Source: Sialis fuliginosa (lineage: Eukaryota; Arthropoda; Insecta; Megaloptera; Sialidae). Taken from it: 64,000 nt of DNA. The position numbers and the translations under genes are program-made. Shown in pieces: positions 1,249-46,671 of the stretch; the stretch's first letter is position 1; each line of letters begins with the position of its first letter. The notes under the pieces are model-generated. The model was not told the DNA's origin. It did no database searches and saw only the letters and a list, made by a program, of their open reading frames with translations. Location: contig OY540822.1 of NCBI GenBank assembly GCA_961205875.1, forward strand, positions 11,844,501 to 11,908,500, in the 5' to 3' direction.

Positions 1249-3517
1249 ATGGCAAGTAAAAATAGTTCAAATCCTTTGGCAAAATTATCTTATAAAGCTT
1301 TACAAAATGAAGCTATGTCATTAATGCTGCCAGCTAATTTAAAGGTAAATATACAAACATAATAATATAATCTACCTACATATTTTGTATTAATTAATTA
1401 TAAATATTAATCATAAACATAACCACATTTTTTATTTTTTTATCGGTACTTACTTTTTCTTACAATCAGTGTAACATGATTTTACACAAATTATCCGCTG
1501 AAAGCTTTTAATAACCCCCCAAAAAGAAATCAATGAACTTTAATTTTTAATATATGTGAGGTGTGTTATCCCCTTCAAGTCAACATAGCGACGCCATTGC
1601 TTATAATTTAATTATTATAATTTAATCCACTGATTTCCTAGGGAGGTGCGAAAAAATTAACAAAATGTAATTTTCATAACATAAATATTAATAAAAAATA
1701 TATACATATAAATTAACTTTTATAACATAATATTAAATTTTTAATGTTTAGTGCATTAGCTGCAATGAAATCTAAATATCGAGTCCATATAGTAGTAGAA
1801 TAAAAACCGTGTTGGGTACACACATGGCAGGGTTCTGTAGTCATTCTCACTAACATTATCTTTATTTATATTACGTATTAAGAGCTATTTCATGTTGACG
1901 AAAATGTGTGAAAAGTGTCCGATTTATAAAAAAAAGTTATTTTTGCTACTGGGTTTGTTATAATTTTCATTTAAATTACTGATTAGTTTAGAAAATAGAG
2001 GGAGGGGGTGCTCTGATAGTGACTGAAAGCATATATCTCGTGACTCAAGGGTTAAAATCAAAAGGTACTGTTGTATTTTAAGATACCTATCAAAATACGC
2101 CCCTCTCAATGAGGAATACACTTTTCTGTTTATGGAAGGGGGGTCCAAAAAAATTGTTTTTTCAATTTACGCCCGTATATCAAATTTCATCTTAATAGGT
2201 ATATAAATGAGATAATGGAAGGATTGTAACATATAGACAGACAGACAGACGGGCAGACTGAACCCATAAGCGTTCCTAGTTGACTACGAAACCCAAAAAC
2301 CTATAATTATTATATTTATGTTTGATTTTTTAAACAAAAATAACGTATATATTATTTATGAATTTCTTAGTAGAAAGCAGTAATCAAATTGAAAAATTCC
2401 GGAATAAAATTGTGAATTCCGGAATAAAATTGTGAATTCCGGTCGGAATTCCGGTACATCCCTAAAAATAATACGTTTGAATTGAAATTATGTGACGCAC
2501 GAAGCACTGCGCTATAGGACATTATATTAATTGCAAATAAAAATTATTTAAAACATTTTGAATATTTATACTCTTGCGGAATATATATTTTTTCCCATTT
2601 TTTGTATTAATACATTTTATAACTTTTATGTCTGTAATGATTTATGAACTAAAGGGAGGAGTGGGGGATCAACGCTTAGATTAGATTTTTTTAAAGGGGG
2701 GCCGTCACTGACTTATAGCGTTATTGAGCGTCATTTCCTGTTGCATATTAATTTTTTATTAAATTTTTGTCACCAGTATAAACCTCTGCTGGCGATAATA
2801 ATCGCAAGGAAGAACGGCCAAGAAAACATCGTCGAACAAATTTTAGCCAATGTTCAGCAAGAAAGACAACAGAGAAGGATGAACACGGAGACCGGACCTC
2901 CAACTTCCAAAAGGTCCCGCAGGATATTCGACGAGCTATGCACCTTGTTCAACGAACCGAGTTTCACAAGTTGCATAGAGCCATTAGCTGAGACACTGTG
3001 CGATATCCAATGGAATGATATTGTCCCTAGCTCCGACACAGAGGGTGACGCGGCTCTACTTTCCGACGCTTCCTCCCTATCCGATGTTTACGCTGACAAT
3101 TCGCTAAATAAGGAAAGAATGCAAATTGATTTGACAAATTATTGCGGAAAACCGTTACCGGAATTGGGAAATAATATCCATCCGGGATCTGCAGATATTG
3201 CAAATAAAGGAAAGCCTGTTTCTATCTACCAGAACACCGTTGAATTAGATTCAACTAACGTGGAGTCCAATAGATTCACCGAATTCTGCGATGTACAATA
3301 TGCACCTCTACCTTCAATTATGACTGCTCATAATAATCATTTGTCTGTGTTATATACGTTCCCGTCAAATAAACCGATGTTAGAACCATTTTACACCCTT
3401 AGTAAAACTGGCAATTCCCAATCTAACATTAAGGCATCTACAGTTGTCAGTTGGTGCTATGGAACAATCACTACTCCGAAAGTTATTCCGAGTATATTTT
3501 CTAATTATAATCATTAA
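1249..3517 (+). CDS. Uncharacterised two-exon gene, copy 1 of a tandem pair
   Basis: Exons 1249-1344 and 2777-3517 join in phase 0 (donor AAG|GTAAAT, acceptor TTTTTGTCACCAG) to give about 278 residues. Exon 1 encodes 32 residues starting MASKNSSNPLAKLSYKALQN. Exon 2 opens with a likely helical stretch (YKPLLAIIIARKNG) and a Q/E/R-rich segment, then a basic run SKRSRR at about residues 80-85 that could be a nuclear localisation signal. An acidic/Ser-rich region with an I-x-W-x-D motif (IQWND) follows. No membrane segment or enzyme motif is visible. I do not recognise the family; a nuclear regulatory or adaptor protein is only a guess from composition. An AATAAA at 3625-3630 fits the 3' end. 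The exon-2 region is duplicated at 5.45-6.65 kb. A transposon-like repeat (about 1803-2305) sits in the intron. The exon join is inferred; translation could instead begin at the internal Met at 2879, which is the start shared with the copy. Confidence 0.6.
1803..2306 (+). mobile_element. Non-autonomous repeat, family also at 30.28-30.95 kb
   Basis: Shares a series of words with 30279-30952: GGTTCTGTAGTCATTCTCACTA, ATAATTTTCATT, GTTTAGAAAATAGAGGG, GTGACTCAAGGGTTAAAATCA and a 3' end that turns into GTTCC...AACCC. A (GACA)n tract at about 2234-2250 lies near its 3' end. A third 3' fragment is at about 47880-47968. It lies wholly in the intron of the 1249-3517 gene. The superfamily is not determined; it could be a SINE- or Helitron-like unit. 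Confidence 0.6.
2395..2453. repeat. Short tandem repeat with GAATTCCGG core
   Basis: The unit AATTCCGGAATAAAATTGTG appears twice in direct order, followed by a further AATTCCGG and GGAATTCCGG, in the intron of the 1249-3517 gene. Confidence 0.75.
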
Positions 3518-5449: not shown

Positions 5450-6650
5450 ATTTTTCCCATTTTTTTGTAGTAATACATTTTATATCCTTTAAAAATGTGT
5501 ATGAATTATTTTATGAAATAAAACAAGAGGTGCTTAGAATATATTGTTTTTAAAGGAAATGGAAACCACTGAATATAATACTCTGTGGCACCGTTGTTGA
5601 CGTATAGCGTCGTTGAGCGTCATTTCCGGTAGCACATTAAATTTTTATAAAATTATTGTCACCAGTGCGAACGTTAATAATCGAAAAGAAGAACAGCGAA
5701 AAAAACGTCATCAAAAATTTGTATTAATTTCAACAAGAAATACAAAAAGAGAAGGATGGACACGAATAATAGTCCTCCACCTTGCAAAAATGACGATATG
5801 AGCGAACCTAATCCGTCAACGAATTCCGAAAATTCCAAAGAGCCTTCGCCTAAAAAAGAGGACAAAATCGAATGGTACGACGCAATTAAACTTTCCGACG
5901 TTAGATCGTTATCTAACATGTACACTGATATATCGGTTGCAAATTGTGCCGAAACTCCGCCACGAGACTTAGGAAATATTATGTATACAACGACTGCCGA
6001 TATGAAAAGCAAAGTAGAAACCACTTATGTGCACAAGAACGCCATTGTTGTTACTTCAACTGACATAGAGCCTAAGATACTCGACGAATTAAGCAGTGTC
6101 AAATATTCCTCTGGGCCTGAAACCATGACTACTGAAACCCAGACTACTACTATATAGTATTTCTTCGTTAAAAACGTTCCAACACTAAGACCTGGAGCCA
6201 AGTCATGGAACAGTCACTACTGCCAAAGTTAGTCCTACTTACTAGTTATATTTTCTAAATATTAATATGTATATAATGTAAACATTAACCTCGGGTTGCA
6301 TAAAACAAAATTGACCACAATTAGTTAATCCGTTGTTTTCAAACCATGATTAATGTTTAATCTCAATTTGTAAATGAAAAAATAAAATCATTAAATATGA
6401 TAATTTTTTACCTTATAAAATATATCATAAATTAGAATTGAAGTAATAATGGTTTTAAAACAACTGATTAACTAATTGTGATTAATTTTGCTTTGTGTAA
6501 CCCAAGGTAAGTATTTAAAATAATAGAATTAGAATTATTTTTGATACGTAAATAGAAATGTATATGTGTTTGTAATATTCAGAGGGTAATAAAATGTTTC
6601 ATTAAACAATTTGGTGTATAAATTAATTTCAATGACAAAATATCTATTTA
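5450..6650 (+). repeat. Right unit of the tandem segmental duplication
   Basis: Counterpart of about 2590-3670 with an offset of about 2.9 kb. It retains intron, acceptor, last-exon and 3' UTR homology. No counterpart of exon 1 (1249-1344) was found at the expected offset. Confidence 0.85.
5756..6157 (+). pseudogene. Diverged, truncated copy 2 of the 1249-3517 gene
   Basis: An open frame of 133 residues starts at the same GAGAAGGATG context as the internal Met of copy 1. It keeps the I-x-W-x-D motif (IEWYD) and the segment STDIEPKI..., matching STNVESNR... of copy 1. Copy 1's basic SKRSRR is not preserved; an acidic/Lys segment replaces it. Upstream of the Met the homologous exon sequence has a net 2-base loss and in-frame stops, and exon 1 is missing. 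Downstream, the frame stops about 50 residues early, although DNA homologous to copy 1's C-terminal codons continues (around 6200-6260). A poly(A) signal survives (AATAAA at 6588-6593). It is either a decaying pseudogene or a shortened, internally initiated paralogue; transcript data would decide. Confidence 0.55.
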
Positions 6651-10549: not shown

Positions 10550-11212
<663 letters not shown>

Positions 11213-15139: not shown

Positions 15140-16330
15140 CCTATAGATTAGAGATGTCGCAGGTTGCAGGTTGCAGGTATACAAGTTCATTGTAAATAAA
15201 CACCGTGTCGGCGAGGTCATAGACTCCTAGGAAAGGATGATGCAATCCGCGGGAATGGACACGATTGCACCATCGACGAACGCATGTTTGTTTTGGTACG
15301 CCGCGCCGCCATCTTTGATTACCGACATTGTCTACGGCTAGGGCCACGGAAGAGGAACAACAAAATAATCACACATTTACACATTCATGTTTCTACGTGA
15401 CATATTTTCAGTACAGGACTCCTAGAATCCTCTTCCGAGTCGTAGAAGTATGTTTGTTTAGGTGTCAGATTGATTTGCAGACGTCTCACAGCTTCCTTGA
15501 TCAGACTGCCGTCTCGGAGCAACTCCTGTAGCATTTCATACGGGTCGTCAGACGTTTTGCTAGAGTCGCCTCCACGTAACTTCTTCGAGCACGATAAGCA
15601 CCCGTCTCGCGATGTCCTCACGCAGTTATCACAGCCTGTAGGTTCACTCCAACTTCTACACGGAACTATATATGGCGATGGTCTGGACGACTTTCCGTGC
15701 CCGTTGCGATTATTATAAGACGGACGGGCTTTTAAAGACGCGGCACTAAGTCGCAAATTCTCCTTTATTTCACTCACTAACTGTTCCATATCTTCAGACA
15801 AAAAATCTGCCCCAGTTTTTACTTGATTTGACGAAAGTACAAATTCTTCTTTAGATGGCATCTTACAGTTGCCAATACACTTGTCCCGCACCTATCACGG
15901 ATATCAAGTTATTTGCTTTAATGTTTAACAAAACAAAGCGATTATGTGTAGAAAAACACGCGTACACCAAATTTCACTTTATTGAATGGAGATACAACTA
16001 TTATGATTGTGAAACTTATGTTTGTGCACTAGTAATGTACAGTCAGCCCAGCCAATAAAATGATGTCAGCGCGTTGTAAGATAGCTACCTACATAAACAA
16101 ATATTACAGTCAGTCTGTCACGCTAGTGACACACTCTGCACCGTATACACGCGCCGTCCAGACGTACTGTAACAAGTATGGCGGAATGTGTAGCACAGAT
16201 CATAATCAAAATATTTACGTTCTTATTGAAAAACTGGGACTGTACACAAACTGTATTATGACTGTACCGTTTACCATTACGTCCGTGCTGGCGGTGCTAA
16301 CGTGTAGCATTCCCACTCCACTATTTTACT
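15140..16330. promoter_or_regulatory. GC/CpG-richer island around the FRAT-like gene
   Basis: Composition here is clearly less AT-rich than the flanks and has many CpG steps (for example CCGCGCCGCCATC at 15301 and ACGCGCCGTCCAGACG at about 16150). A perfect YY1/Pho-type word, AAGATGGCGGC, reads on the minus strand at about 15304-15314, and a second ATGGCGG reads on the plus strand at about 16177. The part upstream of 15861 is the likely promoter/5' UTR. The part at 15140-15384 would be 3' UTR or a separate transcription start. Confidence 0.4.
15385..15861 (-). CDS. FRAT/GBP-type GSK-3-binding protein
   Basis: Single-exon frame of 158 residues from MPSKEEFVLS, chosen over the upstream Met at 15891 because vertebrate FRAT proteins also start MP with an acidic run. 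Residues about 14-42 (GADFLSEDMEQLVSEIKENL...) resemble the conserved FRAT N-terminal block. Residues about 105-130 carry DDPYEMLQELL and GSLIKEAVRRLQ, closely matching the FRAT GSK-3-binding helix-loop-helix. By family knowledge such proteins bind GSK-3, block its interaction with Axin and favour beta-catenin signalling. A C-x2-C-x7-C-x2-C cluster (Cys77, 80, 88, 91) lies between the two blocks and could bind a metal ion; I know of no such motif in vertebrate FRAT. The protein is shorter than vertebrate FRAT (about 230-280 residues). Several plus-strand open frames over it are antisense shadows. A small 3' exon cannot be excluded. Confidence 0.85.
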   Translation of the reverse strand: MPSKEEFVLSSNQVKTGADFLSEDMEQLVSEIKENLRLSAASLKARPSYNNRNGHGKSSRPSPYIVPCRSWSEPTGCDNCVRTSRDGCLSCSKKLRGGDSSKTSDDPYEMLQELLRDGSLIKEAVRRLQINLTPKQTYFYDSEEDSRSPVLKICHVET

Positions 16331-17234: not shown

Positions 17235-19745
17235 TTACACATCATCAGTATCAACTGTATGACCTATAACAGTCGCTGACTGGTGATATCTTCTTCTTGA
17301 AGCAAAATCTTCATTTTCTTCATTGATTTGGGTTGACTGTACGTCGACATGAGGATGCGTGGGTGTTATTAATATTTGTTCATATTCCTGAACTCGCTTT
17401 CTATTTAAAATAATTATTCATTTAAAATAAAACACTACAATTATTTCCTACATGGACATACCCGCACAATCGTAAAATACCGGTTTTAATCCATCTTGTG
17501 AATCGGAATTCAGCTGCGAGCCCTGGTTTTACCGCAGGATTTGCCGTTCCAACGTACAGCCATAAGAGAAACACTGCAACTATATTGGTTAAAGCGTATC
17601 CCCAGTTCACGAGGAACATGATAATCAATTTAATTATAGCCTGAAATATAAACAGTTAATATAGAGTAGACCACAATTAGATAGCCTGTTTTTTACCCCA
17701 AGTAAAGATATCCAACGATTACAAATAGAAGAATACCAATTCTTTGGTTTGGAATGTATATGCTTTTTCGGAGAAACAATCTGAACATCGGAACGTGAAT
17801 TCTACAAAGAAAATTACATTTAATTGTAATAAATTAGTTGTGTTGATTTCTGAACGTACTCCGATATTTTTATGCCTGACTCGTTCTGGAAACAAAGAAT
17901 CCAAATCGCTTCCAACAGAATTGGAAGAATTCATCGTGTCATCATCAAATCTGTCTCTAGACTGTCCGTTTGCAGATGCCGTAAATCTTTCTTCTCTCTG
18001 AGACTGAATGTCAAAAGTCTGTGCTAATGCAAAATATGAGTAATCAACGCATGCATACGTCAACAAGAACGGCATTGTCACAATTGGAGCGAGTGTGTTG
18101 ATACCTCCAATCATGATAAACGTTAGAGTCACTACTGCAACCACTGCCATGGAGTAAATAGGAACTTTATTGGGGCCACGCTGGAATAAATTGAATAAAC
18201 AAATGTATAGACTGTTAAATTCAAATTTTTTGTATAATGTTTACCCCTTTTCCTAAGATACCTATTCCAGGGAATACATTTTCATTTGCAATGGATTGCA
18301 GGACTCTTGGTGTTCCATACATAGCTCCAAGACAACTCGACATAGATGATACATAAAGCCCAGCTAGTAACAACACACTAACTGCGGAAACTTTAGCCGA
18401 AATCATAAAATCAATAAGCAAAGTCTCACGCTTACACGTTGCACCCAAGGTCAGAATAAATACCAAATATAAAAATGTTCTAGAAAATAAAGTTCAATTA
18501 CTTGAAATAAATGCACAGTACTTATTTTAAAACATACCCGACACCAATCGCTGAAAGTGTTCCGTTTGGAATGTCTGTAGAAGGTGCCCGTAAGTCTCCA
18601 CTCATGTTTATACCCGACAGTATTCCGGTGACAGTTGGGAAAAAAACACCGAATACAGTGAACCAACGATAACCTTCGGTATAGTTAGACCAAAGATTCA
18701 AAGCTAAATTATCACTCAACCATCCTTCAAACCCACTTGCTGTAATAAAATTATTACATATTATACTTATTCTAATGCACCAATTATGGATATAATTTTT
18801 TACCCATATCGGTGTGGACAAAACTTCCTACCATAAAATCAAGACCCGCTAATAATAGAATAATTAATAAAATAAACTGCAACTTAACAACCCACTTTAC
18901 ACCAGCTACATTAATAATACTGAGAAGAAGTACAGCACCGCATCCAAACAACCTCTCTGCCAATGGATGACCTGGCATGCCAATAAGTCCGGCCATAGAT
19001 TCACCAAACCCTAGTACATTCAAAGCGCACCCTACTGCCTGAAAAATATAAATAAAACGGTAACAAATTAATGCTAGATATTAGTTTAAGGTCTTACTTG
19101 TCCAAAACAGTACAGAAGACCAATTGAACCTCCAAATCTTGAACCTAATGTGTGCGCCAACAGAAAATAAACTCCACCGCTTTCGATTCTACACCTTTCG
19201 CAAATGCCGACAGCAGAAAGTACAGATACAAGAGCAACAAGTACTGAAAAGTAATCGAACATGCATACACTGGATTTATCAGATTTAAAATGAGTATAGG
19301 TACCTGTAGCTATCACAATTAAAATTGCACTTAAAACACCCGCCTGGCCCACAATCCATCCAGATCGTAAGAAAACAATTACACCAAATATATTAATTAG
19401 ACAAGATGTAAAAACACCATCCCAGGTACCAAACAATATGGGTTGTGATATGAAAAAGTTTGTCCTCCACCATGGCATGTCTCCCTTTAAAATAACGAGT
19501 AATTGTTACTATTATTTTGATTTGTTTATTAGAAATATTTATACCTGTTCCTCGGCAAACAATTCGTTTGCTCCAGATGCATGATGTCCTCCAGCAGCAT
19601 AGTCATATTCATTACCTAAATCTACAAAACCTCCTGTAGATGCTTGGCCTCTGATAGCACCTTCGCTACCTAGACCAAATCGAGACCAATCAACATCTTT
19701 ATTAGGATTTTTATTACGATTCGTGTGTCGTTCAGATAGATCCAT
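17235..19745 (-). CDS. Slc12a8: SLC12A8-type cation-chloride cotransporter
   Basis: Ten exons on the minus strand: 19545-19745, 19304-19484, 19098-19243, 18804-19038, 18538-18739, 18245-18479, 17860-18180, 17697-17801, 17462-17640 and 17235-17400. All junctions are in phase and give 656 residues (human about 714). A cytosolic N-terminus is followed by PWWRTNFFISQPILFGTWDG and the first membrane segments (INIFGVIVFLRSGWIVGQAG). Next come ESGGVYFLLAHTLG, GSIGLLYCFGQ, SGDLRAPSTDIPNGTLSAIG, LYVSSMSSCLGAMYGTPRVL and LAPIVTMPFLLTYACVDYSY. A Ser/Asp-rich cytosolic loop precedes ICNRWISLLG and two late membrane helices. The C-tail has EENEDFASRRRYHQ, matching the family's QENADFATRDRYHH. Expected role: amino-acid-permease-fold transporter of the SLC12 family; substrate not deducible here. 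It is head to head with the IQSEC gene. The least certain junction is exon 7/8, where I used GGA|GTACGT and TTTGTAG|AATTC. Confidence 0.93.
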
Positions 19746-20003
19746 ATTGTTATGATTTAATGCAAAGAAAATGCTCTACATATCTATTTACAAATACTAT
19801 GATAAATAACTTAAAACTCTTGACTCTTGACCGCCTCTCGGATGAAAGCCTTTGTCAGACGGCATTACACCTTTCACACTTTTTTCCTGATAAGTTATTA
19901 AATCATAATCAACGTCATTAATTTATCTTTTAAAAATTATCTACTTTCTTAATTAGACGTGTAGAGATATGCCAAATATACCTAGGGAAATGGATATTTG
20001 GAA
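19746..20003. promoter_or_regulatory. Likely shared (bidirectional) promoter region
   Basis: This lies between the SLC12A8-like start codon and the first candidate plus-strand exon. The gap to the IQSEC start (20807) is about 1.06 kb. Head-to-head spacing suggests a shared control region. No specific motif is convincing. Confidence 0.4.
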
Positions 20004-20088: not shown

Positions 20089-20806
20089 GTAAGTAAAATA
20101 TGACAAGAATAATCGATGAAATCAAACTTGATTATACTTTTTTGTATTTATTATATTATTATTTAACAATATCTATTCTTTTGAAAATCTTCTTTATTAA
20201 TAAATGTTTGAAAATTATATTCAATAATTACATAAATATTGTTTTTAAATGTATATTTTCGTTTATTCTGTGAATATATTATTCAATAATATAATAAATT
20301 ATGTTAAAACTATTGTAGTTATAATAAAATAAAATAACAATAACAGAATATTCTTTGTGATATTTATTGTATTTTTTCTGCTTATAGATTTTTATTCAAT
20401 GTTGAACATATGTCTATAAATATATACAAATTATTCACGAATTTTTTATCTACTCTCCGTGTGATATATTTAAAAAAAAACATACAGGGAAGTCGGTAAA
20501 TTAGATCAACTTTTTAACATATGAATATGTGGGGTGCCCATAAGTGCTGTGTGCATTTGTGTGAGTCAAACAATCAACATTTCAAAATGGCTATTCCGTG
20601 ATACCTACAGATTGTCATTCGGATACATTTTGTTCTTGTACCATATTAAAAGTGAGTTCAAGATGTTAAATTAATGTTGGAATCTTAACGAAAAGTTATT
20701 AAACGAATCTCGTTGTTTATTTTTAAAATGCAAAGTGGTTCTGTGATGTACAACAGCAATATTATGATTACTAAAGTGGAAAAATAGGATATCATTACAA
20801 GGAAAC

Positions 20807-23800
20807 ATGACTTCTCCAATAATAACCAGTTCCTCTGGGAACGGAGTCGTGGGTGCACCTGATATGTTACACAAATATGTAACTCTGGCTCAAAAGGATG
20901 AATTAATTAAAGAGCAATATGAACAAATATGTAGATTGAAAAGAGAGTTGGAGGGACTTGCCAATGAAAGAGACCTCCTGCTTTGCGAAGTCAGCAATCT
21001 TAGATTTGAATTGGAAATGGTTGAACTCAAGAGAATCCAAGATGATACGTATGTTTTAAAGTTTATACATTTTATCCTGTTATAGAATATATTCATGTAA
21101 TTTCCTGCCCTAAAAAAAACCAGATGTTATTCTTATAAACTCTCACTAAATTCAATTTTAATCGATTTGGCTATAAATATTATCAATAATTATTGATATA
21201 TCATTGTAGTTATCCACAAAAAATGGACAGCACTCAATACGTAGTACCGATGAGTAGTAATATGTATTCAGGTCAATCATACATCCAAGCTCGGTCTTAC
21301 ATGCAAACTCAAATGTTAACTTCGATGACCCAAAGTTATGACTCTAATAACGTCTCTCCACATTCTCAAATACAGTCTCCATTAGTGTACAAAAAGGGTT
21401 CGGTTCGCAACAGTGGTGATATGTTGAAACGCATCAGAGTCCAAAATGCGTAAGTTTTTTATTTTATTTGAGTAATATTAATTTCTATAAGTGTATTGAC
21501 AGATATTTATAAGTACATGTTGTGGGAAAATTATATATTTTTATCATTATGTGTGTGTGTTTTTATTGAAGGCCATAAGTTCAATATCTATTGTATTGTG
21601 TGCACGTGTATAAGATTTTTTATTATTTTCTGAATTGAGGTCAAAGGTGATAACAGAAATTAATCGAAAGATCATATGTCATAGAGATATTATGTTTTTG
21701 TACAATTTTAGATATGAGCTATCACAAGATTTGCTTGATAAACAAATTGAAATGTTGGAACGAAAATATGGTGGTCTGAAAGCACGAAAGGCAGCTTTAA
21801 TGATTCAAAGAGCATTTAGAAGATACACTCTGCTTAAAAAGTTTGCAGCAATTACTGCAATGGCCAAAGCTGAGAAACGCTTAAGTCGAAGACTTCAGAA
21901 TGTTGTCATGGAAGGAAACGAACACAATTCTGTTTTAAATTTAGAAGACAGTGAAGATTCAAGAACATGTGTTGGAGATAGTCAATGTCGGAAAGAGTAC
22001 AACAGGTGTGTTTGAAACTTTTAATCTGTTTTTCTTTGTGACTAGAAAAATATTTTATTTTAGCTACAGTTCTCGAGAATGTACTCCAAATTCAAATGCA
22101 ATACGGCCAGTGCGCTCTCTGTCACTGCGGGAACGCCGTAACATGGATGTGACCCCTTTACCGAGAAGCCAATCAGGAACTAACAACAGCTGCTGGTCAG
22201 GTCACGCTCCGACCAACTTCTATGTCCAGCGGCAAGAGAACACACCGCAACAAGGAAACAAACCTCAAGACAACTTGAATCAGCAGATGGTGTCACCGTG
22301 CGAGGCCTGTTCACCCGAATCTATGCAGACAAACATCGTGTGGAACACAATGTCCGATGTGACAAACTATCGGATACAGAGATTTAATCACATCATGAAG
22401 AAAGTCCCTCCTGAAGTTCCCAAGAGGACATCGAGCATTACGTCCAAGTCAGAGCCACGTCCGTACCGGGCCAACGGTCTCAGCAAAACAGCAGAGAACG
22501 GAAGCTTGTCGAGTGTCCAGAGCTCAGGCAGTGATAGCAGTATTTCAGCTGATAGGGCTACATGTGATGGCTCCGATCGGTAAATCTTTCTCTGATAACT
22601 ATTTCGGAACAAAACTATTTTATAAAACATTCATCTTTAGGTTTATTTGAGATAGGCATACGAAACTTAATTCTAAATACCATTACCTTTATTATGACCT
22701 TTAGACATTTACCTTTACCTGTCAAGGTCAACTAGGGGTCATCATAGAATTTTTAAATGGCAACTTATTGTGACATCACAGCTGTAATCAGATTTTGAAT
22801 TCAGAGTATCTTTTGAATGTTATAATCAAAAGATCAAATTGAATTCAGATTTTAATATAAGATACAGGTTTCCATTTAAAATTTCAATGTTGACTTTTCT
22901 TTTACCTTGACAAGCAAAGAGTTAAAATGCCTAATGGCTTTAAAAAGGTACATTTTTAAGAATCATATATACCCTAAAAATCTCATATACTTTATTTCTT
23001 TTTCCAGTGGTTCTGGTGGTTCTCCGATAAGAAAACGCAAAGGTCTTGTACGTAATTTATCTCCGGAAGCAGTTTCCGAGAGCAGTCTGATGGGAATATC
23101 CCATACATCGGCTTCTGTGTACACACTAGAACACACGGAAGAGACGACAGTCAGCTACAAGGTTTCGGAAACTGTCCGCAAACGTCAGTATCGTGTTGGA
23201 CTTAATCTTTTCAATAAGAAGCCAGAACGGGGTGTCGCCTATTTGATACGAAGGGGTTTCTTGGAGAATTCTCCACAAGGGGTCGCGCGGTTCTTAATAT
23301 CAAGGAAAGGGCTTAGCAAACAAATGATTGGAGAGTATTTAGGCAATCTGCAGAATCCTTTCAATATGGCTGTTTTAGAGTAAGTGAAAATTTAATAAAT
23401 GCTTTCAAGTACTCACTGTAAAATTCCATTCATTTTTATTCTCTTAACACCACTCTAGTACTCAGAAAAACTAGCATAACTAGAAAAACATTTATTGACA
23501 CAACTTTCAAGTATAAAATATTTTTTTTTATTATATATTATATTAAATTATTAAATATTTTCTTGTAAATAATTGTAATAGCTAAAGAGTAGCAGAGGGG
23601 AAATTTTTTTAATTAAAATAGGTTAATAGGTTAAAAAAACGCAAAACAAAAAGAGTACCACGTCAGCGGTACTTTTTTGTATATTACCTTTAATTTGCAA
23701 TTCCTGGTCTATACATTGATTCTTCCATATACGTAGTGATGTCCTCTGACTCTTTTTGAGATGCTCTTTTAAGTTTTCTTGCTTGTTTATTATATTAGCT

Positions 23801-26065
23801 ATTGATACTGTCCAGTCACTAACTATGTTTATTCTCTTCATTTTTCATTATTATAACTCAGGTAATATTTGGAATATTGGCAAGGTTAAAGTCTTAAAAT
23901 ATTCTTAAAAGTATAATTAATAAATCTAAGCAAACAAATATTTTGATTTTTTGAAAATCTTGGGGTGATGTAACCCTATTAGCCATTTTAATAGTTATCT
24001 TTTTTTGTGTATTTTGATTTGACTCATTTGTTTATTTTTTAAGATGTTTTGCACACGAATTGGATTTGTCTGGCATGCAAGTGGATGTAGCACTACGCAA
24101 ATTTCAAGCCTATTTTCGAATGCCTGGCGAAGCTCAGAAAATCGAACGACTGATGGAAGTATTTTCGCAACGATATTGTCAGTGTAATATTGATATAATT
24201 GCTCGTCTTAGATCTCCAGACACAGTATGTTTAAATAAACAATACCTAATTGTGTTTATTTTATGTTCTATACTGTACTTTTATTTTTATTTTAGATATT
24301 TGTATTAGCTTTTGCCATAATAATGTTGAACACCGATTTGCATACCCCGAATTTAAAACCCGAAAGAAGAATGAGATTAGAAGACTTTATAAAGAATCTA
24401 CGTGGAATAGACGACTGTGGTGACATAGACAGAGATATGCTCGTTGGAATTTACGATCGAGTCAAAGCTAATGAGTTTAAACCTAGTTCGGATCACGTTA
24501 CTCAAGTAGTTAAGGTTCAGGCTTCTATTGTTGGCAAGAAACCGAACATGGCTTTACCGCATCGTAGACTGGTCTGCTATTGTCGTCTGTACGAGATTCC
24601 TGATATTTATAAGAAGGAACGACCAGGAGTACACCAAAGAGAAGTGTTTTTATTTAATGATTTGCTTGTAGTCACTAAGATTTTGAGTAAGAAGAAATCA
24701 TCAGTTACCTACACATTCCGACAGAGTTTTTCTCTGTGTGGAATGATTGTTACATTATTTGATGTTCCACGTAAGTGCACAAAATAATAAAAGTTATTTA
24801 ATGTTTTTTTTACAATTAACTTCTTTATAGATTATCCATTTGGTATTCGGTTAACCCAGCGTGTGGATGGCAAAGTATTGATAACATTCAATGCCCGTAA
24901 TGAGCATGACAGATGCAAGTTTGCCGAAGACCTTCGAGAGGCGGTGAGCGAGATGGACGAAATGGAAAGTCTGCGTATCGAAGCCGAACTGGAGAGACAG
25001 AAGTCTAGTCGTAACAGATCTGGCACGGAGAACAGGGACAGTGGAGTCGCCGATGTGGAAGTGTGCCCTTGCCCCTGCACCCAAGGCACAGTACTAGTCA
25101 GACCCTCGGACGGAACGGGGCCCATAGGGAACGCGGCCCAGCAAGATATGAACCAACTCAAGCGTTCTGCACTCAGCAACTCTTTGCTAGATATTCATGA
25201 TCAGTGTAAGTAGAATTTTATTAAAATACTTATCTTCTTAGAATCTATACAATTCTTATATCGGATAGATAAAAAAAATATAAAAATTCCTGTTTGATCC
25301 ATACAAACTTTGGAATAATATACAGGTTGGAACATTTGAAGTGTTACAGATTTTTATCTCAGATTATTGCATATTTGAAAAAAAATGTTTTGTTGTGAGG
25401 GAGAAATCAAATAATAATATTTATTTATTTGATTACGAAGGGAGTCATCATCAGAAAAAATATTTAACTTTAGAAAAAAACTTTCTAATAGCAGCACATA
25501 TATTTTAATATAAACGTATAATAAATCTCAAAAAAAATTGTCATTTTTGGCACTTTAAGTTAGGTTATTTCAAAAACATGATGTGAAGAAGCAATTTGGG
25601 CAACAGATTCAGTTTCAGCATGTCAAAAAGCTCCAAGTAGAAACAACAGAACAAAAGTGTTTTTTTGTCAGCCTGTGTTATAGGTTTTACATCCAGAAAG
25701 TACTTTAGTTTGTTGCAATATAAACAAGAGAGTAAATATTTGTAATTTGGTCCGTGAGTTTCATCCATCATACAAGACTGAATATAGAAAACAAACAGAA
25801 TGAAGTCTTTAGAGAGTGTTTGTCTGTATTAGTTACAGGAGACAAGCCACAGAGGCGAGGCAGTGTCGGTTCTCTAGACAGCGGAATGTCCATTTCTTTT
25901 CAGTCAAACTCCGCTAATAATGGAACTCGTGGGGATCCATCAAAATCCAAACCAATGAACCACCAGCAGTCGTTTTTAGGAGGTCTGTTCAATAAAAGGG
26001 AACGTAAGCATTCACGTTCCGAGGACCCATCTAACAGCCCCTTTGTCCGGTCGACGGAGGTATAA
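20807..26065 (+). CDS. siz: IQSEC/schizo ARF guanine-nucleotide exchange factor
   Basis: Nine exons: 20807-21048, 21210-21449, 21712-22005, 22064-22579, 23008-23379, 24044-24224, 24296-24770, 24831-25205 and 25833-26065. All are in phase and give 975 residues. Domains in order: a coiled coil at about 28-80; an IQ motif ([16 protein letters not shown]) at about 190-205 for calmodulin; a Ser-rich linker; a Sec7 domain at about 490-680 with the glutamic finger in [10 protein letters not shown] (Glu near 584) and LNTDLHTPN; then a PH domain at about 690-815. The tail has [18 protein letters not shown] and ends STEV, a class I PDZ ligand, as in other IQSEC/BRAG proteins. Known role: GDP/GTP exchange on ARF GTPases, in myoblast fusion and synaptic traffic. 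An in-frame TGA at 20765 supports the start. Exon 9 uses TATTAG|TTACAG; the AG four bases later would create a stop. Confidence 0.95.
25555..25679. mobile_element. Fragment of the 8784-9272 fold-back family
   Basis: Matches the right arm of the 8784-9272 element: TTAGGTTATTTCAAAAA, CAAGTAGAAACAACA and GTCAGCCTGTGT. Situated in the last IQSEC intron. Confidence 0.6.
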
Positions 26066-35908: not shown

Positions 35909-38900
35909 TCAGTCGAGGAAGCCAGTATTGACAAGTTTCTCTAAGAAGAACTTGACGTCTCCAAGCTCGGAGTCTTTGATGCCAAGTGACTTAAGCATAC
36001 CCAAGTCACCGTTCTCGACTGCCATGAAAACGGAGCGCAAGTGCTCCAAGTCGGATCTCATCAGATGGAGTGCGGCGCCAAAGTCTTCGATTGTCTGGGA
36101 TTCTAGGTTAAGTAATAATCATTGTTACCATCATCGAAATAAAAGTATTTAGATATATGATTTTTCTTCTTATTTTATTGATATTACAAATTTTAATTTG
36201 ATGCATTTTGTTAAAAGTATGTTTATTATATAGAAAAAGACGTGAAAAATTTTCATCTCAAACCGTTCTCGAAAGAAGGCCTCTTTTGAATTAATTTTAT
36301 TTGATGTATAATACTTCAAAATTTGGCAAAATATGTTTTGCTAAAAAATAAAAAAAAATATCGGTCCGAGACTACCCCGCCGGAGCATTTTAGAAATCTG
36401 GCAACTAAATTCGTGTAGTATTATAAATTCTTTTGATCAACTTATAATTTTCGTAGACTCATGGGGGGGGGGGGGGATTGATTACCTTGACCCCCTCCCC
36501 TATCTACGCCACTACCGTGGAAAATACGTATGGTAAGTTGGTAAGCCTACCTCAATAGAATTATAGCCTTGCTAAAGCAAGCTTCCATCCAGGGAAGGGG
36601 GTATTATTAGTTTAAGTGATGATATAACAAACATTTTTATAGGAACGGCATTTTCGATAGCGTTGATAAAAACGATGTTCGTTGGTATACATTTATGCGA
36701 TAAGTGTATGTCAATATACAGGCTGTTTAAAATTTCAAATTAATCACTTTTGACAAAACTTATTTCAAGTAAGTTAAATAAAATGAAATAATATATCTTG
36801 AAAACAAAAAAGGCATTGTCATGCAAAATATTAGACAAAATTGTTCTTTGCGGCGGAGATTGAATCCCTGTTTTAATTTATATTTACCCCCAGCTTCGCC
36901 ACAGGAGATTGTCCTAAATAAGAATAGTTTATTCGGAAAATTAGTTTTACCTAAATTTTGATTTTGTGGCTTAATTTTTTCCTTACATATGACTTCTTAT
37001 ATTACAATATGATTAATATTGCTCAGTAAAATAATGTTTAGTATGGTAATTCGATAACTTAAAGTAAGTTATATACAAGCGACAAATAATTAAATGAAAC
37101 GAATTTGAAACAATTTATTATCGTCACTTTAAGTTACTTTGCAGCAACCCTGTATAAATGAATATAAAAATATCGGTAAACATTTTTTAATAATACTATT
37201 TTGATACGTCCGCCGATAGGCGATTAGTATATAACAAATTCAGAGCACGACTCGTCGGCGATAGGTGATTGAAAATTGATTTTACAATATTTACCTGATA
37301 AAGCTATGGCAACCTTTTCTGAGCCGCCTAGAGGTGCAAGGGCGTCCCTGGCTTTACTACCGAATAGTTTTTCTAAATAGTTTGGTCCATGACTTGCTAA
37401 TAACGATTGCAGAAAGCTGGCTGTCTCTTCTACAGGTGGTCTTTTAGCTGAAAATTATAACATGTTGTATGCAATGCATATCATTATATCGATGGTTTTA
37501 AATCATAACATGATAACTGACATTTTGTCCATTTTCTGATAAATACGTATTCCGATTTAATTTTGCGTGTTCTTTCATATAGGTATAATGAGGTACTGGC
37601 ACCAGCCTTGGACAATACCGCAGTATTGGACACTTGTTTAAAATCATAATTTATAGACACAAAACTCTAAAACAGCTCAATTTGATGACAATTGGTCAAT
37701 GGGTGTCAAAATGGTGGAGACTTAAACCAATTATTAGTGTAATTTATTTATTAATTATTATATATCTGCTTTACATTATTTCAAATTTTTCGATTCTTTG
37801 TTTTATAACTTTTGTTTCGTAGTACTTATCATTTTGTAATCATCAGTAAGTGTCAATCACTTGGTGCCTATTATTGAGATTATTTTGTATATTTCTGGAG
37901 AAAAAACATAAATGAAATAAGAGACTATAATTAAAAAAAACTGTGCCAATGGGTGTCAAAATGGTGGACATTTAAACTAATTATTAGAGTTATCTATTTA
38001 TTAATTGTTATATTATATTATCAGAGCATCTGCTTTATATTGATTCAAATTTTAAAATTCTGTATTTTAATTTAATTAATTTAAAATTGGTACATATCAA
38101 ATTTTAAAATGGTTTCCTGATAAATCATATTTTTCAGTTGTCATGCTATGACTTGAAATCATTTGAATAATTGTGAAATGAGTTAATTAATCATGTTATA
38201 AACTTGGATTGGTATATTATTCGTAATGTAGTCTATCGATCTGTATTAATTGTAACATTATTGTAAAAGTACTGAAATTTCAAACTATATCGATTAATTC
38301 ATATTTTATTAGTCACATAATAGACCTTTTAGTACAGTACAAAAAAACACTGTTTTTTTCGAGTTTACAATATTGGCAGCGGAACATTTTTAAATCACGA
38401 GGGGAACACAATTTGATAACCAAAATATGGATTGTTTTTTAATGTTAAATGAACAATTTGCTATTTGGCAGTTTACAACAGGGGGATATTATGCCTCCCC
38501 CTGTTTTGCCGCCACTGCTTCTAATCATTTAGATCTTAATTCACAGATTATTGTGTTTGGAATGAATTTAAATTTTGGTTATACACCACACGGAAAAAAA
38601 TTGAGTCGATTTTTTACTAAAAATTACAGTCATTCAAATGATTTATTCAACTAATTATTCTTATGTTGACATATACAAATTATTTTATTTCAATTGTAAT
38701 TACATTTTTCTATTTTTTATTAAAAGACAATACAATAAATACTACGATTGTGTAGAATTAATTATATTAAAAGTATTTTTTTTATTGGTATAATAATAAT
38801 AAACTACACCAATAATATAGATTTCAATCCAGCCCGCCAAAAATTACTATTGATATTGTGATTTTAGTAACATTTATAAAAATAAATGCAATTTAAGTTT

Positions 38901-44900: not shown

Positions 44901-45616
44901 TTTATCGTATTCTACGTGAAAAAAAACACGAATCTATCTTTGAAAACGTTTTTTTGAACAACCTAAACTTTACAAGATATAAGGTTTTATCATTTTTTTA
45001 AATTATACTATACTTATATCCGGTATTATAAAGGAGCTCGCAAAATTTGCTAGCTTACAAGCACTCTCAAATGGGGTATTAATTCTGTACTAGTATCTAT
45101 GGAATTTAGAGCAGTGATACTTCAACTAATTGTAACACAGTTGGCATCTCTGACCGTACAAAATAATTTTCATAATATCACCACTGTTTTAATACCGCCG
45201 GTGTTTACCATCAACGTGTGCACAAAACTTGTCATATAAGTTTGATATCTCATTTGAGAGTGCTTGCAAGCTAACAAATTTGCGAGCTCCTTTATAATAC
45301 CGGACATTACATAAAATATATTTTAAAAACTTTTCGTCAGGATAAAGGGGGTCACCTTATATTTACAGACAATTACAAGGGGGAGAGGATGTTAAAAATT
45401 TACTAACCTAACGATCCCTTAATATTAAAAAAAAATCAGACAATTTTTTTAATTTTAAAATATTTAATTTAAAATTTAACTTACCTGCGGTACATAATCG
45501 AGAGTCTTCGTCATAGCTATCAGGACAGTCGGGTGCTCCGTCGCAAAGATATTGAATGGATATGCAGTTTCCGTCGCCGGGACATTTAAATGGCTGATAG
45601 GGGTGGCAAGCGTCAT
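35909..45616 (-). CDS. Prohormone-4-like (IDLSRF-type) precursor, C-terminal part
   Basis: Three in-phase exons on the minus strand: 45485-45616, 37295-37447 and 35909-36102. They encode the last 159 residues. The first is an LDL-receptor class A domain with all six cysteines (ACHPYQPFKCPGDGNC..., ...LCDGAPDCPDSYDEDSRLC). The second has KRPPVEETASFLQSLLASHG, with a dibasic KR at the junction. The third has ESQTIEDFGAALHLMRSDLE and ends LEKLVNTGFLD. This matches, from memory, the conserved C-terminal half of honey-bee prohormone-4, a secreted brain neuropeptide precursor. The signal peptide and IDLSRF-type peptide should be in an upstream exon that I could not find within 45617-64000, so the gene is probably cut by the window edge. 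The 8-kb intron 37448-45484 is filled with MITEs. Last-exon plus-strand frames are shadows. Confidence 0.9.
36103..37294 (-). other. Intron of the prohormone-4-like gene
   Basis: No exon seen. It includes a G13 homopolymer at about 36464-36476. Near the exon (about 37207-37271) two diverged direct repeats CGCCGATAGGCGATT / GTCGGCGATAGGTGATT are separated by about 45 bases. Confidence 0.6.
37591..39256. mobile_element. 'AGGTACTGGCACC' MITE, copy B, interrupted
   Basis: Left terminus AGGTACTGGCACCAGCCTTGG at 37591; right terminus GACTGGTGCTAGTACCT at 39256. The segment GTGTCAAAATGGTGGA..CTTAAAC occurs twice (about 37705 and 37957), so the left part is partly duplicated. About 1 kb of unrelated sequence (about 38080-39130) separates the halves. 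Two adjacent partial copies are also possible. Confidence 0.6.
40306..40673. repeat. 185-bp tandem duplication carrying (TTAGG)3
   Basis: Units 40306-40488 and 40491-40673 are essentially identical, from ATGCGTCAATCTCAAATGTC to CTCAAATAGGGTCAAAA. I noticed one substitution (CACGTAATG / CACGTAGTG). Each carries three perfect TTAGG units (40438-40452 and 40623-40637). Confidence 0.9.
41348..41665. mobile_element. 'AGGTACTGGCACC' MITE, copy C, left end deleted
   Basis: Only AGGTACT remains of the left terminus before internal family sequence (TTTGTATTAAATCAATTTAATTACC). The right terminus CCAAGACTCGTTCCAGTATCT|TA is retained. Confidence 0.7.
43147..43573. mobile_element. 'AGGTACTGGCACC' MITE, copy D, left end missing
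   Basis: Starts in family-internal sequence (CAAGTACATCTTTATTAAATCAATT) and ends with CCAAGACTGGTGTTAGTACTT|TA. Confidence 0.7.
44570..44800 (-). repeat. Dispersed repeat, inverted relative to 480-760
   Basis: Reverse complement of the 480-760 segment: GATGATAGTTCCAAATAGACATTTCTCTGTTAA, CACTGAAATACTTTTAAAGACAATATAAAA and CGATATGGTAACAACGCTAGG. Probably transposon-derived; termini not defined. Confidence 0.75.
45019..45304. mobile_element. MITE with ~55-bp inverted repeats (CCGGTATTATAAAGGAGC)
   Basis: Left TCCGGTATTATAAAGGAGCT, CGCAAAATTTGCTAGCTTAC, AAGCACTCTCAAATG. Right arm is the near-perfect complement ending GAGCTCCTTTATAATACCGGA. It is 180 bases from the LDLa exon. Confidence 0.85.
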
Positions 45617-46671
45617 CTGTAGGGAATACTATCAATAAAAATTATTGGAAAGGGTAATAAAGAGAAAATTAAAGAAGAAATAGCATAAATTATACATTTA
45701 ATTAATCTAAAATATGGCAAATATCTCGAGTAACATAGAGATTAGAGATACTCTAGTAAAAGTTATTACAACCTTGTTATTTTTAGCCAAAATTTATTTA
45801 TGTATTATTTTTTACAAATTGAAATTAATATGAAATATATTTAATAATATTGTTTGATAAATTTGGCTACTACAAATTGCAGAAATCGATTTGGGTTGTC
45901 ATAACTCTTACTATGAGTAACTCTACGGTAATGCAGCTGGGCATTATTAAAATGAATCAATACTTATATTGTATAAATCTATGAAGATTTTTTGAATCTA
46001 TACGTTGTTTTATAGGCATATACAACGTTCTATATATCTGTTTGTTTGTTCAGTTTTACACAAAAACTACTGAACCGATTTTGATGGGACTTTCACTGTT
46101 AGAAAGTCTAAAATCTCATAATATAATTAATTTTTTCTAATAAAATTTTATAGAAATGAAAATCAACTCAACCAAAACATTATATTGAATAATTAGGACA
46201 GAAAGGTATTAAACAAAGGTTATATGTATATTTGTACAAAATAAAATGGATTTGGCTCAGAAGCCGCGCAGAATTCATAGTTAAAGATTAAAAATAGAAC
46301 TTAATCTCTAGACTACGAACAGTTTTTAAATAACTTCGTCAGGACGTATGCACAGTATTAAGATTTATGTAAAATATGTAGTTGTAATACGTGAAACAAA
46401 GGCAATATGGGGTACATTTCAATGTAAAAAGCTTGAAACTTATGTTTTTCCTTGTTGCTACACTATGAGGATTAGAATTTATAAGAAAGCATATAAAAGA
46501 TAATTTCAATTGTTTCTTATTTTATATCTAATTTTGTTGAATGCTCTTTAAATTTTTGTAGGTTAATTATTACTGTACTGAATAAAATATAAATAATTTC
46601 AATTTTTGTAAATGATTAAATTTCAAATATTATTAATAAAAATCCGGTTTAAGTATAAAGCAATGTCGCGC

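Follow-up and report, generated by a model that had tools for sequence, protein, structure and literature searches.

A probable FRAT/GBP-type GSK-3-binding protein gene in the megalopteran Sialis fuliginosa, with relatives in other insects and in crustaceans

In vertebrates, FRAT is recruited by Dishevelled (PMC4228291, PMC3529405); its site on GSK-3 overlaps with that of Axin, and the two proteins compete for the kinase (PMC3529405). Vertebrate Frat also possesses a Crm1-dependent leucine-rich export signal and moves GSK-3 out of the nucleus (PMC4394695), and a role of Frat in the nuclear export of GSK-3 is likewise described in PMC551520. Searches of the open-licence literature, a small fraction of all that is published, returned no publication on FRAT in arthropods.

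The window analyzed here is a stretch of 64,000 nucleotides of contig OY540822.1 of Sialis fuliginosa (assembly GCA_961205875.1, positions 11,844,501 to 11,908,500). A first-pass annotation, made from the letters alone, had placed a FRAT/GBP-type frame of 158 residues at 15385..15861. These limits proved exact; the strand, which had not been given, is the minus strand (Table 1). The frame runs from an ATG at 15861 to a TGA with zero internal stops, and the nearest upstream in-frame stop lies at 15892-15894, with no further in-frame ATG before the start codon. The absence of an intron was read off the coding frame and leaves introns in the untranslated regions possible. The G+C content of the frame was 45%, compared to 28% across the window, and the longest ATG frame found among 50 shuffled windows (single bases shuffled) was 135 codons.

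Table 1. Features of the window around and within the FRAT/GBP-type frame; positions are those of the window, and residues are numbered along the 158-residue protein.
Feature	Position	Strand	Details
FRAT/GBP-type GSK-3-binding protein frame	15385..15861	minus	158 codons, intron-free, stop codon within range
N-terminal block EDMEQLVSEIKENLRLSA, residues 23-40	15742..15795	minus	L...I...L.L pattern in 62/62 rows
R..PY block RPSPYIVPCRS, residues 60-70	15652..15684	minus	R..PY in 62/62 rows
GSK-3-binding block DDPYEMLQELLRDGSLIKEAVRRLQI, residues 105-130	15472..15549	minus	match to FRAT1/FRATtide chains; pattern in 61/62 rows
C-terminal block LTPKQTYFYDSEEDSRSP, residues 132-149	15415..15468	minus	Y[DE]..[DE] in 60/62 rows
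Candidate poly(A) signal AATAAA	14836..14841	minus	first AATAAA 3' of the stop; consensus match only
SLC12A8-like transporter exons	17422-19775	minus	AA_permease matches
IQSEC/schizo-type gene exons	20768-26065	plus	two frames within 24018-24787 match Sec7 and IQ_SEC7_PH; outer limits by eye

The assignment to the FRAT/GBP family, proposed in the first-pass annotation, was borne out at several levels. The profile search that it had suggested gave a match to Pfam GSK-3_bind (PF05350) at 38.9 bits (E = 8.5e-10; cut-off 25), ending at residue 130, so the case of no profile hit did not occur. When the 158-residue protein was compared with the PDB using phmmer, the best match was the human FRAT1 chain 5oy4 (E 2.3e-6), followed by the FRATtide chains 1gng (1.1e-4), 3zrk (1.7e-4) and 4afj (4.4e-4); the rest of the eight matches were unrelated (E 0.33 or worse). 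A 29-row profile placed the same four FRAT1 chains on top (7.9e-9 to 1.7e-6); the next match, a phycobilisome-linker chain (E 0.0014) in which no single stretch passed, was unrelated. All 62 aligned rows, including the window protein, matched PF05350 at E <= 0.001. A resemblance of this kind might also arise in another GSK-3 interactor, for example GSKIP or a protein with an Axin-like domain for interaction with GSK-3, that is FRAT-like in the docking helix only, as GSKIP, Axin and FRAT compete for GSK-3 (PMC3529405, PMC8775565) and could have similar docking helices. Such an origin appears very improbable given that the Pfam scan at E <= 10 contained neither a GSKIP nor an Axin domain, its sole entry besides GSK-3_bind being a sub-threshold Stress-antifung match, and that the four FRAT1 chains led a PDB search with no Axin or GSKIP chain among its 8 matches at E <= 10.

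The coding exon is single, which would also suit a pseudogene or a frame open by chance. Set against this are the intact frame, which shares 43-65% identity with every one of the 61 relatives aligned to it, and the result of a leave-one-out search, in which a profile built from the 61 relatives without the window protein scored that protein at 211.6 bits (E 4.1e-64), whereas the highest score in 20 windows shuffled by single bases was 7.0 bits. With the same profile, the runner-up among the 964 window frames of at least 30 residues reached 3.1 bits. The genome also offers no other PF05350 match as a source for a copy: in a six-frame search of all 392 Mb (20 contigs), which could miss intron-split copies, this locus was the sole match, and it was stop-free. 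Decay or chance is accordingly the least credible of the explanations considered. The protein almost certainly belongs to the FRAT/GBP family, and the intact frame is most likely a functional gene, its coding sequence confined to a single exon, and an arthropod orthologue of FRAT/GBP.

Conservation was assessed on an alignment of the window protein with 61 rows picked for spread from the 152 relatives listed (91 were omitted); the rows were gathered by similarity, so the conservation counts, including the 21 invariant columns, are biased upward. The two FRAT blocks that had been recognized by eye were recovered in the right order, as EQLVSEIKENLRLSA at residues 26-40 and DDPYEMLQELL...GSLIKEAVRRLQ at residues 105-129. 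The former, extended to residue 23 in Table 1, contains a leucine-rich pattern (L28-I32-L36-L38) in which L28 and L36 are invariant and I32 and L38 almost invariant across the 62 rows, with a spacing that we take to be that of a CRM1 export signal. Compared alone with FRAT1, this block aligned in the right order, but at 2.7 and 4.2 bits, which is not significant. The acidic start following the initial MP (MPSKEE), which had been counted as part of the FRAT signature, occurs in arthropod relatives as well; none of the comparisons matched it to vertebrate FRAT. The only row departing from the pattern of the GSK-3-binding block was P0118, which has EAVKRI. Two further blocks were conserved in arthropods, R..PY and Y[DE]..[DE], their patterns having been defined after inspection of an earlier alignment; the latter lies beyond the end of the Pfam match, and was missing from two rows (P0116 and P0120).

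The AlphaFold2 model based on the 62-row alignment contained helices at residues 17-41, 107-117 and 119-129, with a mean pLDDT of 84-85 for residues 21-40 and of 89-90 for residues 111-130, and low values elsewhere. As a whole, the model was poor (mean pLDDT 61.8, pTM 0.28), and a fold comparison of the whole-protein model gave no match. A poor whole-chain model would be expected if the protein is largely disordered apart from a short segment for docking, and lends no support to the assignment.

Among the neighboring genes (Table 1), the SLC12A8-like transporter supported the earlier statement that the DNA comes from an insect genome. The model, joined by eye, was about 71% identical to the SLC12A8 of Chrysoperla carnea, the first of 120 rows listed, and in a tree of 32 rows the two formed a pair with a support of 99/97, Chrysoperla being the sole row known from Neuropterida. 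At the next fork, with lower support (90/93), this pair joined a set holding all the named beetles. On this evidence, the DNA most likely stems from Neuropterida.

Several smaller frames were also observed in the window. Two plus-strand frames, 2879-3517 (212 codons) and 5756-6157 (133 codons), were 30% identical to each other over 89 residues (E 2e-10), without any Pfam family match at E <= 0.1, and are perhaps a fast-evolving tandem gene pair. On the minus strand, an ERF4/Golgin A7 match at 10639-11016 was barely over its cut-off (30.7 compared to 29.3 bits), a frame at 45408-45641 contained an LDL-receptor class A repeat, and a frame at 37224-37454 had no Pfam match; the last two are presumably exons of an insect IDLSRF-like peptide precursor.

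The view of the first-pass annotation that the family belongs mainly to vertebrates, which would make an invertebrate copy new, found no support. A search of 5.8 billion proteins, in which candidate relatives were restricted by length, yielded 136 relatives at E <= 1e-3, and its listing covered 120 of them. An organism name was given for 37 of the 120, all of them arthropods from nine insect and two crustacean orders as assigned from genus names (Orthoptera, Phasmatodea, Thysanoptera, lice, Hemiptera, Odonata, Ephemeroptera, Coleoptera, Hymenoptera, Decapoda and Isopoda), and at least 12 of these 37 already carried a GSK-3-binding name. Similarly, a search with the 29-row profile, under the same kind of length restriction, gave 427 matches at E <= 0.01, and the named rows among the 120 listed were arthropods, including the honeybee. 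In the tree of FRAT-type rows, the window row formed a rather long branch with no settled position among the orders. The insect gene is thus nothing unusual within a family that is commonly regarded as vertebrate, and intact relatives from other insects are already known to the databases.

Of the 136 matches, 120 were listed, and the 37 of these with an organism name included no vertebrate, fly, moth or lacewing; neither absence from flies and moths nor presence in other phyla can be deduced from them. Flies are represented in the same protein database, as it contains many Drosophila rows for the neighboring SLC12A8 gene. FRAT/GBP is not known from the fruit fly, the principal model of Wnt signalling among invertebrates. 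A broader proposal, on which we are almost evenly divided with a slight leaning towards doubt, is that FRAT/GBP may be an old regulator that predates the split of vertebrates and arthropods, would be strongly constrained in most insects and crustaceans and could have been overlooked because the fruit fly lacks the gene, with the arthropod R..PY and C-terminal acidic Y-[DE]-x-x-[DE] blocks hinting at some partner or regulatory step beyond those described for vertebrate FRAT.

Concerning function, the docking block and the leucine-rich block, both conserved in arthropods, would fit the two acts described for vertebrate FRAT, docking and export. Residues 105-129 would form a pair of short helices that docks on the surface of GSK-3 (Shaggy) also used by Axin; docking would keep GSK-3 off Axin, such that beta-catenin/Armadillo would escape phosphorylation, with the active site of GSK-3 remaining open for other substrates. 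The N-terminal LVxEIKENLRL block would act as a leucine-rich export signal that carries bound GSK-3 from the nucleus. All of these steps, from binding and competition with Axin to export, as well as any part played in Wnt or other GSK-3 signalling, are here extrapolated from vertebrate FRAT, and we put the probability of the full mechanism, GSK-3 docking in competition with Axin together with export from the nucleus, at roughly 0.65.

The protein may instead be a family member that binds GSK-3 but whose main task in arthropods lies outside canonical Wnt signalling, in exporting or scaffolding GSK-3 towards other substrates, perhaps by way of the R..PY and C-terminal blocks. In the mouse, canonical Wnt signalling reportedly does not require Frat, which counts in favor of such a role, as does the extent of arthropod conservation well past the GSK-3-binding block (R..PY in every row; the C-terminal block beyond the Pfam match in all but two). 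Activity of Frat in the nuclear export of GSK-3 points the same way (PMC4394695, PMC551520). However, the residues matching FRAT1 fall in the FRATtide segment, and Frat competes with Axin for GSK-3 (PMC3529405); with FRATtide-type docking and competition with Axin, an effect on Axin-bound GSK-3 would be hard to avoid, provided that binding has been kept. We therefore consider a mainly non-Wnt role unlikely, though well above the explanations by another interactor or by decay, and favor docking in competition with Axin combined with export.

The gene speaks against FRAT/GBP as a vertebrate invention. Insects with a FRAT gene (beetles, bees, crickets and probably lacewings) would allow Wnt signalling, nuclear export of GSK-3 and other roles to be tested against one another. 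The gain is modest, since relatives are already in databases under a GSK-3-binding name; the remaining interest lies in the reach of the family, its possible loss in model flies, and the two additional blocks conserved among arthropods.

The closest counterparts of the window protein are entries such as the GSK-3-binding protein FRAT2-like of Schistocerca americana (P0009) and the GSK-3-binding protein-like entries of Apis mellifera caucasica (P0143) and Procambarus clarkii (P0061), which resemble it in length, in the blocks and their order, and in Pfam family; no substantial difference from these insect and crustacean entries was seen. GSKIP likewise binds GSK-3 and is present in invertebrates (PMC8775565), but its domain differs and is absent from the Pfam scan of the window protein. 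Compared to vertebrate FRAT1, the window protein is shorter (158 amino acids, against 279 for the FRAT1 chain), and the alignments to FRAT1 end at residue 129, so that its conserved C-terminal block finds no FRAT1 counterpart. The N-terminal leucine-rich match to FRAT1 is in the right order, but weak and not significant. What the window protein and vertebrate FRAT1/FRAT2/GBP (PF05350; 1gng, 5oy4, 3zrk, 4afj) have in common is the GSK-3-binding block, in which 16 of the 25 residues of the docking segment are identical to FRAT1.
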